Positions 19,703-36,270 of a stretch of DNA of 42,585 nt are shown one piece after another (the stretch's first letter is position 1; the number at the start of each line of letters is the position of its first letter). The notes beneath the pieces were generated by a model. That model was not told the DNA's origin. It was given only the letters and a program-made list of their open reading frames with translations, and did no database searches. The position numbers and the translations under genes are program-made. Source of the stretch: Bacteroidetes bacterium MED-G13 (GTDB taxonomy: Bacteria; Bacteroidota; Bacteroidia; Flavobacteriales; Flavobacteriaceae); contig NTKO01000007.1 of assembly GCA_002457735.1 (NCBI GenBank), positions 1-42,585 of the forward strand. Reading direction: 5' to 3'.

Positions 19703-21475
19703 TTACATTCTATCAACAACACCAATCCCTAACATGGATAATGCATTTTTAATGGTAATACCAACTAATTTTGAAAGTTCCACTCTAAATGATTTCTTGT
19801 CGTCAAATGCAGATTTTAAAATCGGTAATGACTGATAAAATGAGTTAAATGACTTTACTAAATCGTAAACATAATTAGCAACCAATGCTGGATTATGTGA
19901 GCTTGCGGCTCCACTTATAACAGAAGGGAATAAATCAATTTGTTTAATTAAATCTTTTTCTTTTACCTCCAATTGTCTTTCATATTTATTTGTTACCAAT
20001 TCAAAATTAACTCCATTTAGAATAGATTGAATTCTTGCATAAGAATATTGAATAAAAGAGGCTGTATTTCCCTGAAAATCTACTGATTCTTTTGGGTCAA
20101 AAAGAATTCTCTTTTTAGGATCTACCTTAAGTATGTAATACTTTAAAGCACCCAGTCCAACTGTCTTAAATACATTATTTTTTTCATCTTCAGAAAGACC
20201 ATCTAATTTTCCTAACTTTTGAGAAACATCTTTTGCTGTTCGGGTCATCTCTTCCATTAAGTCATCAGCATCCACTACTGTGCCTTCTCTACTTTTCATT
20301 TTACCACTTGGTAAATCCACCATACCATAGCTTAAATGAAATAAATTTTCAGACCAAGAAAATCCAAGCTTTTTTAATATTAAAAAAAGAACTTTAAAAT
20401 GATAGTCTTGTTCATTACCAACAGTGTAAACCATTGAGTTAATATCAGGGAAATCTTTCACTCTCTGCACAGCAGTTCCAATATCTTGAGTCATATAAAC
20501 AGCAGTCCCATCAGCGCGAAGGACAATTTTTTCATCGAGTCCTTCATTCGTTAAATCACACCAAACTGATCCATCATCTTTTTTATAAAAAACACTAGAC
20601 TTTAAGCCAGATAAAATAAATTCTTTTCCTAGTAAGTATGTGTCACTCTCATAATAGTAACTATCAAAGTCTACCCCTAAATTTTTATAAGTTTCTTCAA
20701 AACCTTCGTATACCCAACTGTTCATTTTTTTCCAAAGCTCTACTACTTCTTTATCAACAGACTCCCATTTAATAAGCATTTCTTTTGCTCTTAGAAGAAT
20801 GGGTGCATTTTGCATCGCTTCTTTTTCGTTAGATCCACTTTTAATGAGCTCTTCAACTTCTTTTTTATATAGCTTATCAAATTTAATATAGTAATCTCCA
20901 ACAAACTTATCACCTTTTGTATTTGTGCTTTCCGGAGTATCGCCATTGCTATAATCTAACCATGCGATCATACTCTTACAAATATGAATACCCCTATCAT
21001 TTATTATTTGTGTTTTATATACTTTTTTGCCCGACGCTTTATATATTTCAGACATACTGTATCCAAGAAGATTGTTTCTTATATGACCGAGATGTAATGG
21101 CTTATTAGTATTTGGAGAAGAATATTCAACCATTACGACATCTTCTGAATTAATATTAGAATATCCATACTCTAAATTATCTTTTATGGAATTAAATAAA
21201 TCTAAATAGTATTCATCTGAGATTGAAAGATTCAAAAATCCCGAGACAACATTATAGGAAACAATTGAATTAGTTTGAACCAAATAATTACCAAGCTTTT
21301 CGGCAATTTCTTTGGGATTCATTTTTAATTCTTTTACTAGCGGAAAAACTACAAGAGTGATATCACCATCGAATTCTTTTTTAGTTTGCTGAAGTTCAAT
21401 ATTCTTAGTTTTAAGCTTAAATATCTCATTTAAGGCAGTTTTAATATTTTCTCTAATGATTTTTTGAATATGCAT
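19703..21475 (-). CDS. argS: Arginyl-tRNA synthetase
   Basis: Class I synthetase charging tRNA-Arg. The HIGH motif is HLGH in NTNKPLHLGHIRNN. GVDFDSYYYESDTY, RADGTAVYMTQDIG and the anticodon-binding SYARIQSIL segment are present. KMKSREGTVV stands in place of KMSKS, as is common in ArgRS. I choose ATG at 21475 (590 residues); an in-frame TTG at 21481 would add two residues. A near-consensus TATATTTA at 21492-21499 leaves only a very short leader. It is the first translation gene of the argS-ffh-folD run. Confidence 0.96.
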   Translation of the reverse strand: MHIQKIIRENIKTALNEIFKLKTKNIELQQTKKEFDGDITLVVFPLVKELKMNPKEIAEKLGNYLVQTNSIVSYNVVSGFLNLSISDEYYLDLFNSIKDNLEYGYSNINSEDVVMVEYSSPNTNKPLHLGHIRNNLLGYSMSEIYKASGKKVYKTQIINDRGIHICKSMIAWLDYSNGDTPESTNTKGDKFVGDYYIKFDKLYKKEVEELIKSGSNEKEAMQNAPILLRAKEMLIKWESVDKEVVELWKKMNSWVYEGFEETYKNLGVDFDSYYYESDTYLLGKEFILSGLKSSVFYKKDDGSVWCDLTNEGLDEKIVLRADGTAVYMTQDIGTAVQRVKDFPDINSMVYTVGNEQDYHFKVLFLILKKLGFSWSENLFHLSYGMVDLPSGKMKSREGTVVDADDLMEEMTRTAKDVSQKLGKLDGLSEDEKNNVFKTVGLGALKYYILKVDPKKRILFDPKESVDFQGNTASFIQYSYARIQSILNGVNFELVTNKYERQLEVKEKDLIKQIDLFPSVISGAASSHNPALVANYVYDLVKSFNSFYQSLPILKSAFDDKKSFRVELSKLVGITIKNALSMLGIGVVDRM

Positions 21476-21512
21476 TCTCAATTATCTGTTGTAAATATAC
21501 TGTTTAATAATA

Positions 21513-22436
21513 TTACTTTTTTGGTAAAAATATTTCAGCCATCATACATCTAGTACTTCCTCCACCACAAACTTCAATTATATTTATTTCCGAGGAAATA
21601 ATTCTTGAATATTTAGTAATTATATTTTTCTGAATTTCGTTTAAAGAATTTTCAGCTGACTTACTCATTACCAACAAACTTTCCTTTTTATCATTTATAA
21701 GCTCTAGCATATTTCCTGCAAACTTTTCCACTTGATTTTCAGAAATTTCTATTAGCTCTTTTTCTGAATTTTCAAGGAAACTAATAACATTAATTCTCTC
21801 CTCTTGATCATCTATAGAATCTAAGCATATTATACAATAAGATTCAGCCAAGCACATCATAACATTGGTATGATAAATTGGCAGTCTTTTTTTTGCTACA
21901 TCTTGAAATGAATGGAAACTTACTGGAATATATTTAAAATCTTTACAAAATTTTATAAACAGCTCTTTATTAGATCTTTCAGAAATTGAACAGTAAGCAA
22001 TTTTATTTTTTCTATCTAATATCATACTACCTGTACCCTCTAAAAATTGACTATCCTGTTCAGCAAATGAATAATCAATTACATTATTTATTATAAAGCC
22101 TTGATTTTTTATAAAATCTAAAATTTCTGGGCGTCGCTCCATGCGCCTACTTTTTGCAGACATGGGATACAAAACAATATCTCCATTTTGATGTGTCGAT
22201 ATCCAATTATTTGGAAAGACTGAGTCTGGTGTTCTGTACTTATTGTCATCTTGAAACACATGTATATCAATATTATTTTTTTTTAACTTCTTAACTAATT
22301 TTTCAAACTCTTCAATTGCTAACTGCGCTATATTTTTTTTATTTATTTTTTTTTGATAATGATTATCCTTTGAAGTCTCATCATTAAAACCAAAATCAAA
22401 AGGCCGAATCATTAGTATACTTTTTGCTGTGCTCAA
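21513..22436 (-). CDS. ctlX: Citrulline hydrolase CtlX-like (amidinotransferase fold)
   Basis: A 307-residue member of the guanidino-group-modifying superfamily, close to the family annotated as citrulline utilization hydrolase CtlX, which releases ornithine, ammonia and CO2. Motifs are PDSVFPNNW (70-78), LEGTGS with Glu133, YHTNVMM with His189, and nucleophile Cys297 in GGGSTRCM. The second amidinotransferase-fold gene lies 2 nt upstream, which suggests coupled expression and linked substrates. The fold is secure; the exact substrate is inferred from family resemblance. Confidence 0.82.
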   Translation of the reverse strand: MSTAKSILMIRPFDFGFNDETSKDNHYQKKINKKNIAQLAIEEFEKLVKKLKKNNIDIHVFQDDNKYRTPDSVFPNNWISTHQNGDIVLYPMSAKSRRMERRPEILDFIKNQGFIINNVIDYSFAEQDSQFLEGTGSMILDRKNKIAYCSISERSNKELFIKFCKDFKYIPVSFHSFQDVAKKRLPIYHTNVMMCLAESYCIICLDSIDDQEERINVISFLENSEKELIEISENQVEKFAGNMLELINDKKESLLVMSKSAENSLNEIQKNIITKYSRIISSEINIIEVCGGGSTRCMMAEIFLPKK

Positions 22437-22438
22437 AA

Positions 22439-23353
22439 TTATTCTCGGATTAACGGTAAAGTACTACATCTAAATAAACCACCTTGCTTTGAAATTTCAT
22501 TATAGTTAATTTCCTCAACTGTAATTCCATTTGATCTTAACCAATTATTAAGTCTTGAAAAACTTATTTCGCTGACTACAGTATTTTGTGATATTGAAAA
22601 AAAATTACATTTTAGTTCATTAATTTCTAATAAAGAAATTTCAAAAATATTTTCTTTTTTAAAATTATTCAAAATCCAATTGTAATCATCCTTGCATAAA
22701 AAAGCCTCAGGACATACAACCAATTTATTTATTCCAACTGGCTGGAAACAACAATCTAAATGTAAAGCTAACTTTTGGTAATCAGTATCTGACTTGATCA
22801 GGGGAAATGAAATGATTTTTTTTTCAGGAAAATATTGTTTTATAAAATCAATTCCATCTTGATTTGTTCTTGCGGTTTTAAAATCATCAAACTTATTCTT
22901 TTTACATGTACCAATAAAAATGTATCCATCATGTAAAATAATATCACCACCTTCAATACTACAATTTTTTGGCAGGTAGACTAAATCATCAGGATTAATT
23001 TTTTTAAATAAATTATTCAAACCCTCAATTTCTTTTGATCTTTCTTTTATCGTGTTCGAAATAAAAAATTTGTTTTCAATAACAAACCCTATATCTCGAC
23101 TAAAAATCTGATTAATATTTTTTAAAATTGATGGTCTAAAAACTTTAATATCGTATTTCAAAAATATCTTATTAAAATAATCCAATTGAGAAATAATATC
23201 AATCTCCGTTGGATATGTTCCATTCAAAACATGAAATCTACTTTTTGGATCATAACATTCATTTGCTGATGGAACTGAACCCAAACTATTTCCAATTCCT
23301 AACACTACAGCCTTAAGCCTTGATGTTTCATTATTTACATTAAGCCTTAGCAT
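22439..23353 (-). CDS. Arginine deiminase / dimethylargininase-family hydrolase
   Basis: A 304-residue protein with the five-bladed amidinotransferase-fold signature: SRDIGF (Asp87), IEGGDIIL (Glu134), LHLDCCF (His198) and nucleophile Cys296 in GGLFRCSTLPL. This Cys-His-Glu set hydrolyses guanidino groups. Relatives are arginine deiminase and dimethylarginine dimethylaminohydrolase, both of which release citrulline. It is 2 nt upstream of ctlX, whose expected substrate is citrulline. Which guanidino compound is used cannot be read from the sequence. Confidence 0.75.
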   Translation of the reverse strand: MLRLNVNNETSRLKAVVLGIGNSLGSVPSANECYDPKSRFHVLNGTYPTEIDIISQLDYFNKIFLKYDIKVFRPSILKNINQIFSRDIGFVIENKFFISNTIKERSKEIEGLNNLFKKINPDDLVYLPKNCSIEGGDIILHDGYIFIGTCKKNKFDDFKTARTNQDGIDFIKQYFPEKKIISFPLIKSDTDYQKLALHLDCCFQPVGINKLVVCPEAFLCKDDYNWILNNFKKENIFEISLLEINELKCNFFSISQNTVVSEISFSRLNNWLRSNGITVEEINYNEISKQGGLFRCSTLPLIRE

Positions 23354-23382: not shown

Positions 23383-24663
23383 TTAAAAACTTCTTGGAGC
23401 AGATCCAGTGAAAAGTTGTCTTGGTCTTCCAATTGGTTCTTTCATTAATCTCATTTCTCTCCATTGGGCAATCCAACCAGGTAATCTTCCAAGTACAAAC
23501 ATAACTGTGTACATATCTGAAGGAATTCCCATGGCTCTGTAAATCACACCAGAGTAGAAATCTACATTAGGAAATAATTTACGATCAATAAAATACTTAT
23601 CTTTCAAAGCATTTTCTTCCAATTCAGCAGCGATATGAAGTAAAGGGTCGTCAACACCAAGAGATTTTAAATATTTATGTGCTGCTTCTTTAATGATTCT
23701 AGCTCTAGGATCATAATTTTTATAAACTCTATGTCCAAATCCCATTAATCTAAATGGATCAGATTTATCTTTAGCCTTTCTAATATATTTTTTTGTATTT
23801 CCTCCATCCTCTTTGATAGATTTTAACATCTCGAGAACAGCCTGATTAGCACCTCCATGAAGTGGTCCCCACAAGGCCGAAATACCTGCAGAAATTGATG
23901 GGAATAGGCCTGCATGTGATGATCCAACAATCCTTACGGTTGAAGTAGAACAATTTTGTTCATGATCAGCATGTAGAATCAAGAGTTTATTAAAAACATC
24001 AATTAACTTTTTATCCGGTCTATAAATATCGTTAGGTTTTTTAAACAATAGATGCAATATCATTTCTGGATACCCAAGGTTTCTCAATTTCATTGAGTAT
24101 TGAAGAGGGAACCCATTTTTTTTCCTGAATGACCAACCTACAAGAATCGGTATCTTTCCCATTACTTTGACTATGGTATCATACATCCCTTCTTTACTTC
24201 TGACATAATCTAGAGAAACATCATCGGGATTAAAGGCAGTTAGAGAACTTGTTAAAGATGATAAAACTCCCATCGGATGTGCAGAGCTTGGAAATGCATC
24301 AACAATTTTTTTTACATCATCATTTACAATACTATTATCAACGATATCATCATGAAATTTTTTAATTTCATCTTTTGTGGGTAACTCCCCAAAAATCAAT
24401 AGGAAAGCTACCTCTAAAAAAGATGCTTTTTTTGCCAAATCATCAACATCATACCCACGATATCTTAAAATTCCTTTTTCACCATCTAGGTACGTAATTT
24501 TGCTTTCACATGAAGCCGTATTTTTAAAACCTCTATCAATAGTTGTAGCGCCAGATTCTGCTCTTAGAGATTTTATGTCAATGCATACATCTCCTTCAAC
24601 TCCTCTGTAAACAGGGAAATCATAGCTTGAACCATTAATATTTATAGTTGCTTTTTCGGACAC
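23383..24663 (-). CDS. gltA: Citrate synthase
   Basis: Condenses acetyl-CoA and oxaloacetate, the entry step of the TCA cycle. Catalytic-site segments are LHADHEQNCSTSTVR, GFGHRVYKNYDPRA and PNVDFYSG (the catalytic Asp). SCESKITYLDGEKGILRYRGY is the usual N-terminal signature of the type II (hexameric, NADH-sensitive) form. I choose GTG at 24663 (MSEKATINING, 426 residues), which matches family starts. An in-frame TTG at 24672 would add three residues. The -7 box at 24696 fits the GTG with a leader of about 27 nt. Confidence 0.95.
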   Translation of the reverse strand: MSEKATININGSSYDFPVYRGVEGDVCIDIKSLRAESGATTIDRGFKNTASCESKITYLDGEKGILRYRGYDVDDLAKKASFLEVAFLLIFGELPTKDEIKKFHDDIVDNSIVNDDVKKIVDAFPSSAHPMGVLSSLTSSLTAFNPDDVSLDYVRSKEGMYDTIVKVMGKIPILVGWSFRKKNGFPLQYSMKLRNLGYPEMILHLLFKKPNDIYRPDKKLIDVFNKLLILHADHEQNCSTSTVRIVGSSHAGLFPSISAGISALWGPLHGGANQAVLEMLKSIKEDGGNTKKYIRKAKDKSDPFRLMGFGHRVYKNYDPRARIIKEAAHKYLKSLGVDDPLLHIAAELEENALKDKYFIDRKLFPNVDFYSGVIYRAMGIPSDMYTVMFVLGRLPGWIAQWREMRLMKEPIGRPRQLFTGSAPRSF

Positions 24664-24695
24664 AATGAGCAAATGAAAGTTAGTCTACTATTTTG

Positions 24696-35457: not shown

Positions 35458-36270
35458 TTATTCTTTCTTGTTATCATTTTCGGATTCAGACTCTTCCTCT
35501 TGTTTAGCCTCTTCAGGAACAGGTGCTTGCTCAACTGCTGGAGCCTCTTCAGAAACAGGTGCTTCCTCATCTGCCGGAGCCTCTTCAGAAACAGGTGCTT
35601 CCTCATCTGCCGGAGCCTCTTCAGAAACAGGTGCTTCCTCATCTGCCGGAGCCTCTTCAGAAGAAGTTGGTTTATTAGAAACTACTTTGCTTTCTGTTTT
35701 TTCTATAATAACTTCATTACTTCTTCTTTTAAATGGCAAACCTAACTCACTTAAAAGCTGCAAAGCCTCTTTATCAGATTTAGCGGAAGTAACAAAAGTT
35801 ATATCCATACCAGAAATCTTATTAATTTTATCAATATTTATTTCTGGAAATATGATCTGTTCTGTTATACCTAAGTTATAATTGCCACGACCATCAAAAC
35901 CAGAACTCTTTACTCCGTTAAAATCTCTAACGCGAGGAAGAGCAGTGGTAACTAATCTGTCTAAAAACTCATACATATTTTCCCCTCTCAAGGTAACTTT
36001 AACTCCAATTGGCATTCCCTTTCTTAATTTGAAAGATGCAACATCTTTTTTGGAAATAGTAGCAATTGCCCTTTGTCCAGAAATTTCAGAAATTTCATTA
36101 ATAGCATGATCAATTAATTTTTTATCATTAACAGCAGCACCTACTCCTTTTGAAATAACTATTTTCTCAAGTTTTGGTACTTGCATTACATTATCATAGC
36201 TAAACTCTTTGACTAGCTTATCAACTATGCTTGTTTTGTATTCGTTTTTTAATCTTGGTATATAACTCAT
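35458..36270 (-). CDS. rplE: 50S ribosomal protein L5 with long acidic repeat tail
   Basis: Binds 5S rRNA and contacts the P-site tRNA. Residues 1-183 are a complete L5 ([59 protein letters not shown], ending LPFKRR). Residues 184-270 are an extra acidic tail rich in Glu, Ala and Pro, in which the 12-residue unit [12 protein letters not shown] occurs three times, followed by a diverged copy ([12 protein letters not shown]) and an acidic end. The tail is read in frame and ends 7 nt before rpsN, so the extension is real unless the repeat was misassembled. Its role is unknown. Confidence 0.95.
35507..35650. repeat. 36-bp tandem repeat inside rplE (3 perfect copies plus 1 diverged)
   Basis: Units at 35543-35578, 35579-35614 and 35615-35650 are identical. 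The copy at 35507-35542 differs at four positions. A partial fifth unit begins at 35651. Each unit encodes 12 residues on the minus strand, so copy number can change without breaking the frame. Identity at third codon positions points to recent expansion or ongoing homogenisation. Confidence 0.95.

Follow-up and report, generated by a model that had tools for sequence, protein, structure and literature searches.

Two adjacent genes in the window, by which we mean the whole stretch of 42,585 nucleotides analysed here, are predicted to provide a hydrolytic route from arginine to ornithine in place of arginase, a reading, with both reactions predicted, to which we assign a probability of about 0.8. 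The first-transcribed gene of the pair, upstream of CtlX, is referred to by the working name UP. In the proposed route UP would hydrolyse arginine to citrulline and ammonia via Cys296 and a thiouronium intermediate, with His198 and Glu134 acting as base and the guanidino group held by Asp87 and Asp200; the paralogue CtlX, which has Asn for those Asp residues, would hydrolyse citrulline to ornithine, CO2 and ammonia; and RocD, encoded elsewhere in the genome, would pass ornithine on toward glutamate semialdehyde. Such a route would yield no ATP and form no carbamoyl phosphate. Both reactions, the order in which they occur and what becomes of ornithine are inferred from what the genomes display directly: the intact genes and their residues, their linkage, the constant company of CtlX, the swaps of UP with arginase and a longer deiminase, and the presence of rocD.

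The gene pair and its locus

The window corresponds to contig C30 of an 82%-complete genome of 1.06 Mb, whose nearest named relatives are uncultured marine Bacteroidetes single-cell genomes. On the minus strand, with neighbour names assigned by family resemblance, the genes run rplQ, a gene without known role, carA, eno, gltA, UP, CtlX, argS, ffh and folD. An earlier reading of this DNA from its letters alone (the sequence-only reading) had described two genes 2 nt apart, with intact Cys-His-Glu sites, argS immediately downstream and carA in the same neighbourhood. Both open reading frames were confirmed as complete at the coordinates listed below, with the 2 nt gap between them and UP transcribed first; argS adjoins CtlX, and carA does lie near, though two genes off UP. 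The catalytic sites are likewise intact, with C296, H198 and E134 invariant in 47 homologues of UP and C297, H189 and E133 invariant in 113 homologues of CtlX. A functional coupling through carA was dropped, since eno and gltA intervene and carA belongs to a conserved general block.

23383..24672, minus strand: gltA, citrate synthase, directly upstream of UP; conserved next to UP and next to the arginase when this substitutes for UP
22439..23353, minus strand: UP, compact arginine-deiminase-like hydrolase, proposed to convert arginine to citrulline and NH3 (304 aa, ATG start)
23093..23104, minus strand: FSRD motif of UP (F84-D87) with the guanidino-type Asp87; D87 invariant in 47 sequences
22943..22954, minus strand: EGGD motif of UP (E134-D137) with the catalytic Glu; E134 and D137 invariant in 47 homologues
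22754..22762, minus strand: HLD motif of UP (H198-D200), general base and guanidino-binding Asp; H198 and D200 invariant in 47 sequences
22466..22471, minus strand: R295-C296 of UP, with nucleophile Cys296; C296 invariant in 47 sequences
21513..22436, minus strand: CtlX, citrulline hydrolase, proposed to convert citrulline to ornithine, CO2 and NH3 (307 aa, TTG start, NF046062)
22206..22217, minus strand: FPNN motif of CtlX (F74-N77), amide-type Asn replacing Asp; N76 and N77 invariant in 113 sequences
21864..21872, minus strand: HTN motif of CtlX (H189-N191); invariant in 113 sequences
21546..21548, minus strand: nucleophile Cys297 of CtlX; invariant in 113 sequences
19703..21481, minus strand: argS, arginyl-tRNA synthetase, directly downstream of CtlX

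The start codons of CtlX and argS, listed as TTG, are uncertain. Both genes of the pair are under purifying selection, with dN/dS of about 0.12 for UP and 0.21 for CtlX when compared with a 90%-identical relative (L019). Promoter and terminator scans at the locus gave matches at chance level only, and no transcription unit is therefore defined for the pair. Elsewhere in the window (35458-36270), ribosomal protein L5 carries a long acidic C-terminal tail of about 80 residues made up of repeated 12-letter units, and the rpsN ORF overlaps it in a different frame.

The resemblance of the second enzyme to CtlX proposed by the sequence-only reading is borne out by the curated NCBI model NF046062, which it matches with 417.6 bits against a cut-off of 334, and by its FPNN and HTN motifs. 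These two motifs mark CtlX, and guanidino-acting enzymes carry FTRD and HLD in their stead (Price 2022, PMC9007349). The activity of CtlX rests on mutant fitness data, and the authors of that work ask for biochemical proof (PMC9007349). A phmmer search of CtlX against the PDB returned no solved relative.

Linkage, exchange with arginase and metabolic setting

To place the pair in context, we surveyed 216 genomes of the order, all at least 90% complete except the window's own. UP is found in 126 and CtlX in 139 of them, and all 126 genomes with UP also carry CtlX. CtlX lies directly 3' of UP on the same strand for 97 of 128 UP genes, with gaps of 14-159 bp as measured between matched regions; 21 further UP genes are 0.4-2.7 kb from CtlX, bringing the total within 2.7 kb to 118, and the other ten are far from CtlX or on another contig, in genomes that still contain it. 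The pair is therefore adjacent in most relatives, which answers a check that the sequence-only reading had proposed. This arrangement is far beyond chance; the block gltA-UP-CtlX-argS recurs in relatives and has been inherited largely vertically. At 80 UP loci taken from GTDB species genomes, CtlX is downstream within 4 kb in 57 and gltA is present in 72. UP is nearly confined to the order, with a strong match in only four outside genomes (G055, G076, G098 and G230) of a class sample of 197, and in each of the four it stands beside CtlX. Two genomes, G133 and G315, have two complete UP-CtlX pairs each, at separate places.

One genome points to joint transfer. The other surveyed members of the genus of G380 carry arginase and neither UP nor CtlX, while G380 itself lacks arginase and has a pair in which UP and CtlX each group, in their respective trees, with sequences from the genus of the window (supports 100/99 and 98/96). 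On the same contig, glyS shares 68-73% identity with its own genus and 62-66% with that of the window. The pair in G380 was thus apparently transferred as a unit, as judged from these trees and identities. Two serine recombinase-like genes adjoin it (loci L333 and L334 on contig C24) and are a possible vehicle of the transfer.

Arginase was defined as a match to TIGR01229 of at least 190 bits, which a gap separates from the next, agmatinase-like group at 114 bits or less; only six of the matches pass the strict curated cut-off, and for three arginase matches compared with agmatinase models the agmatinase scores are about three times lower. On this definition arginase occurs in 45 of the 216 order genomes. 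Once 45 tiny endosymbiont-type genomes (0.3-0.6 Mb) were left out, the 171 genomes compared comprised 121 with UP only, 41 with arginase only, four with both and five with neither, a near mutual exclusion with a Fisher p of 3e-29 that ignores shared ancestry. CtlX is present in 121 of the 121 UP-only genomes as against 12 of the 41 arginase-only genomes, counts that likewise ignore shared ancestry. Five genera (g21, g22, g152, g166 and g172) include switches between UP and arginase among their members.

The exchange extends to the locus itself. Arginase fills the exact slot of UP between gltA and CtlX in G370 and G213 (L190, L194), follows gltA one gene before CtlX in G163 (L189), and in G226, a genome of another order, stands in the arrangement arginase-CtlX-argS (L206). 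A decayed UP, present as C-terminal remnants, stands beside CtlX in G309, with arginase on another contig (L329, L330). In G246, G293, G428, G321, G308 and G278 arginase alone adjoins argS, at the position that the end of UP-CtlX takes in the window (L235, L237, L238, L335-L337); taken with L206, arginase or arginase-CtlX directly upstream of argS recurs in several families.

In genomes of other orders, the gene before CtlX is often a deiminase of 480-490 residues with FTRD, EGGD, HID and GGTHC. Strong deiminase matches (E below 1e-20, with counts made by hand from coordinates) occur in 23 genomes of the class sample, 22 of which have CtlX, adjacent in 16, and none of which has UP. Since UP, the longer deiminase and arginase are each found next to CtlX, three arginine-consuming enzymes share one position, and the swap of UP for arginase in its slot, together with the longer deiminase beside CtlX, makes arginine the likely substrate of UP. 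CtlX is also present in many class genomes that lack both UP and a strong deiminase match. Its use is therefore not restricted to a series with UP, as it occurs in such genomes and beside arginase as well; next to arginase it must serve a separate purpose, probably the salvage of outside citrulline. At three loci outside the order (L195, L197, L208) CtlX is followed by a shortened arginine-decarboxylase-like protein, which scores 169.8 bits against a cut-off of 369 for the arginine decarboxylase model.

The sequence-only reading had also asked whether the genome lacks arcB and arcC. No carbamate kinase (arcC) scores over the curated cut-off in any of the 216 order genomes, and the only carbamoyltransferase-like match in the window's own genome, at 82% completeness, resembles pyrB. 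Neither an ornithine carbamoyltransferase nor an arginase nor arginine biosynthesis is recognisable in this genome, and E. coli queries did not find argB, argC, argE, argG, argH, proA, proB, proC or speA in it; matches to E. coli argI and argH were discarded, as by eye they resemble pyrB and fumC, respectively. At this completeness the missing genes are no more than suggestive of an arginine-importing organism, possibly a scavenger of arginine and proline. RocD is encoded at C15:14907-16130 of the own genome (667.8 bits, cut-off 378.4) and exceeds the cut-off in 164 of the 216 order genomes. The own genome also has a proline dehydrogenase-like match, and in a search for P5C dehydrogenase the three aldehyde dehydrogenases found there score far below the glutamate-semialdehyde models. 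In G253 (L192) proC and proB genes adjoin CtlX, in keeping with a use of ornithine for proline.

The proposed reaction of UP and its alternatives

UP passes no curated NCBI model, and its weak matches are to arginine dihydrolase, arginine deiminase and dimethylargininase. The best named match is the ArgZ domain model (41.9 bits, cut-off 450), with the arcA equivalog TIGR01078 at 24.8 bits (cut-off 489.1) and the NCBI DDAH equivalogs at 13.4-14.8 bits (cut-offs 300-340). The broad Pfam family PF02274 is passed with 27.9 bits against 22.8, although a PF02274 search of the own genome gave no match at genome-level E-values because UP is too divergent. Distant relatives of UP include PHROG 25854, a phage family without known function, and Enterococcus phage genes in PQ520363 and OR846605, at 26% identity.

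An AF2 model of UP (pLDDT 94, pTM 0.91) has as its best VIA match the streptococcal arginine deiminase 4bof (Z 30.3, rmsd 2.6 over 280 residues). Amidinotransferases and ArgZ (Z 29.7) tie with arginine deiminase within about one Z unit, the ArgZ N71S structure 6juz is among the structural matches, and DDAH structures score Z 27 and below. Given these tied scores, the modelled fold fixes the superfamily of UP and not its reaction. UP lacks the length of about 400 residues and the helical insert of ordinary deiminases, having 304 residues and aligning with 280 of the 409 residues of 4bof.

UP carries the full ArcA set of triad, two guanidino-type Asp and Arg residues, namely D87, E134, H198, D200, C296, R105 and R162, a pattern that the longer deiminases share, and its C-terminus, RC..LPLIRE, resembles the RCMSMPFERE of deiminases. 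R105 and R162 are invariant in 47 sequences and are candidate carboxylate-binding residues: R105-x-x-E108 and R162 match the pattern of the longer deiminases (R187/R189-E190; S-x-R262-T), and it is with Arg residues at those positions that known deiminases bind the carboxylate of their substrate. Both this role and the equivalence of the Arg residues are predicted from sequence. The sequence-only reading had likened the first enzyme to either arginine deiminase or dimethylargininase; its FSRD, EGGD, HLD and RC motifs favour the former over the latter.

The constant pairing of UP with CtlX and its interchange with arginase are well supported. An ambitious extension would make UP the founder of a distinct compact arginine-deiminase family obligately paired with CtlX, a split arginine dihydrolase, possibly a channelling complex, that trades places with arginase; as a whole we regard this as rather unlikely.

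UP might instead be a complete one-enzyme dihydrolase like ArgZ or AgrE, with CtlX merely salvaging outside citrulline. The ArgZ domain is, as noted, the best named profile match and close to the best structural one, and a one-step arginase can replace UP beside CtlX. Asn71, however, is reportedly the residue that sets ArgZ apart in function. Where AgrE and ArgZ have FTAN in the alignment UP has FSRD, so that the position of Asn71 is held by Asp87, invariant in 47 sequences, and UP should on this comparison stop at citrulline. A one-step enzyme, moreover, would need no CtlX, and UP never occurs without it in 126 genomes. We therefore consider a one-enzyme dihydrolase distinctly improbable; the presence of Asp87 and the constant company of CtlX favour citrulline as the product of UP and CtlX as the next step.

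Still less probable is a role for UP as a dimethylargininase (DDAH), removing methylated arginines and handing citrulline to CtlX, as might be supposed from its 53.5 bits with Pfam PF19420 (DDAH_eukar) and from distant relatives annotated as dimethylarginine dimethylaminohydrolase family proteins. PF19420 fits CtlX far better, with 364 bits, which renders the DDAH name uninformative on substrate, and the NCBI DDAH models stay at 13-15 bits. Substitution by arginase and the longer deiminase points to arginine, and FSRD together with HLD makes a deiminase pattern; to our knowledge, DDAH lacks the Asp of the HxD motif. That UP is an amidinotransferase moving the amidino group of arginine to some amine and releasing ornithine is barely credible: AGAT, SxtG, HsvA and StrB1 head its Foldseek ranking and amidinotransferases tie with deiminases in VIA, but UP keeps the Glu of EGGD, its C-terminus is deiminase-like, no dedicated acceptor pathway is linked to it, and its constant CtlX would go unexplained.

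The two-step route by way of citrulline is consequently the reading we prefer. Arginine to citrulline to ornithine in series, free of arcB and arcC, had been envisaged by the sequence-only reading, and it gains support from the adjacency of the genes, the absent carbamate kinase and the slot swaps, with citrulline as the predicted product of the first step.

Significance and comparison with known systems

In the sea, flavobacteria rank among the main degraders of algal protein. With most of the surveyed flavobacteria lacking arginase and none having a recognisable carbamate kinase, their arginine catabolism looked incomplete, and the pair offers a concrete answer. It would also correct the misleading database label of DDAH or deiminase family protein that hundreds of genomes bear. 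The locus constitutes a natural experiment in which one slot is filled either by arginase, releasing urea, or by two cysteine hydrolases that would release ammonia and CO2, and the Asp/Asn position provides a residue-level test of UP against ArgZ and of two-enzyme against one-enzyme chemistry. The literature searched contains no description of the UP-CtlX pair, of swapping between UP and arginase, of a dependence of UP on CtlX or of a compact deiminase family. Four elements are new here: arginase and UP trade places in one slot, UP apparently depends on CtlX, a second deiminase also partners CtlX, and the Asp/Asn position argues against a one-step enzyme.

Among known systems, the second gene is by score and residues a full member of CtlX (NF046062; Price 2022, PMC9007349) and shares its proposed reaction. 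There, however, CtlX serves proteobacteria in using citrulline and has ocd or aruG as its neighbour (PMC9007349), whereas here it is coupled to an upstream deiminase-like enzyme that would feed an arginine route. The Francisella citrulline ureidase Ctu is another case of bacterial hydrolysis of citrulline to ornithine, but it belongs to the PF00795 nitrilase family and is not homologous to CtlX (PMC9007349). ArcA (TIGR01078/PF02274) has its fold, active-site residues and proposed reaction in common with UP, which is about 100 residues shorter, has no helical insert and is paired with CtlX instead of arcB and arcC. Cyanobacterial ArgZ/AgrE achieves the same net conversion of arginine to ornithine, CO2 and two ammonia with a catalytic domain alike in fold and size; it carries out both steps in one enzyme through Asn71, and here an Asp-type enzyme would take one step and an Asn-type enzyme the other. 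Arginase (RocF), finally, performs the same net arginine-to-ornithine step and occupies the same genomic slot in relatives, but it is an unrelated metalloenzyme that releases urea, in place of which the pair would release ammonia and CO2.
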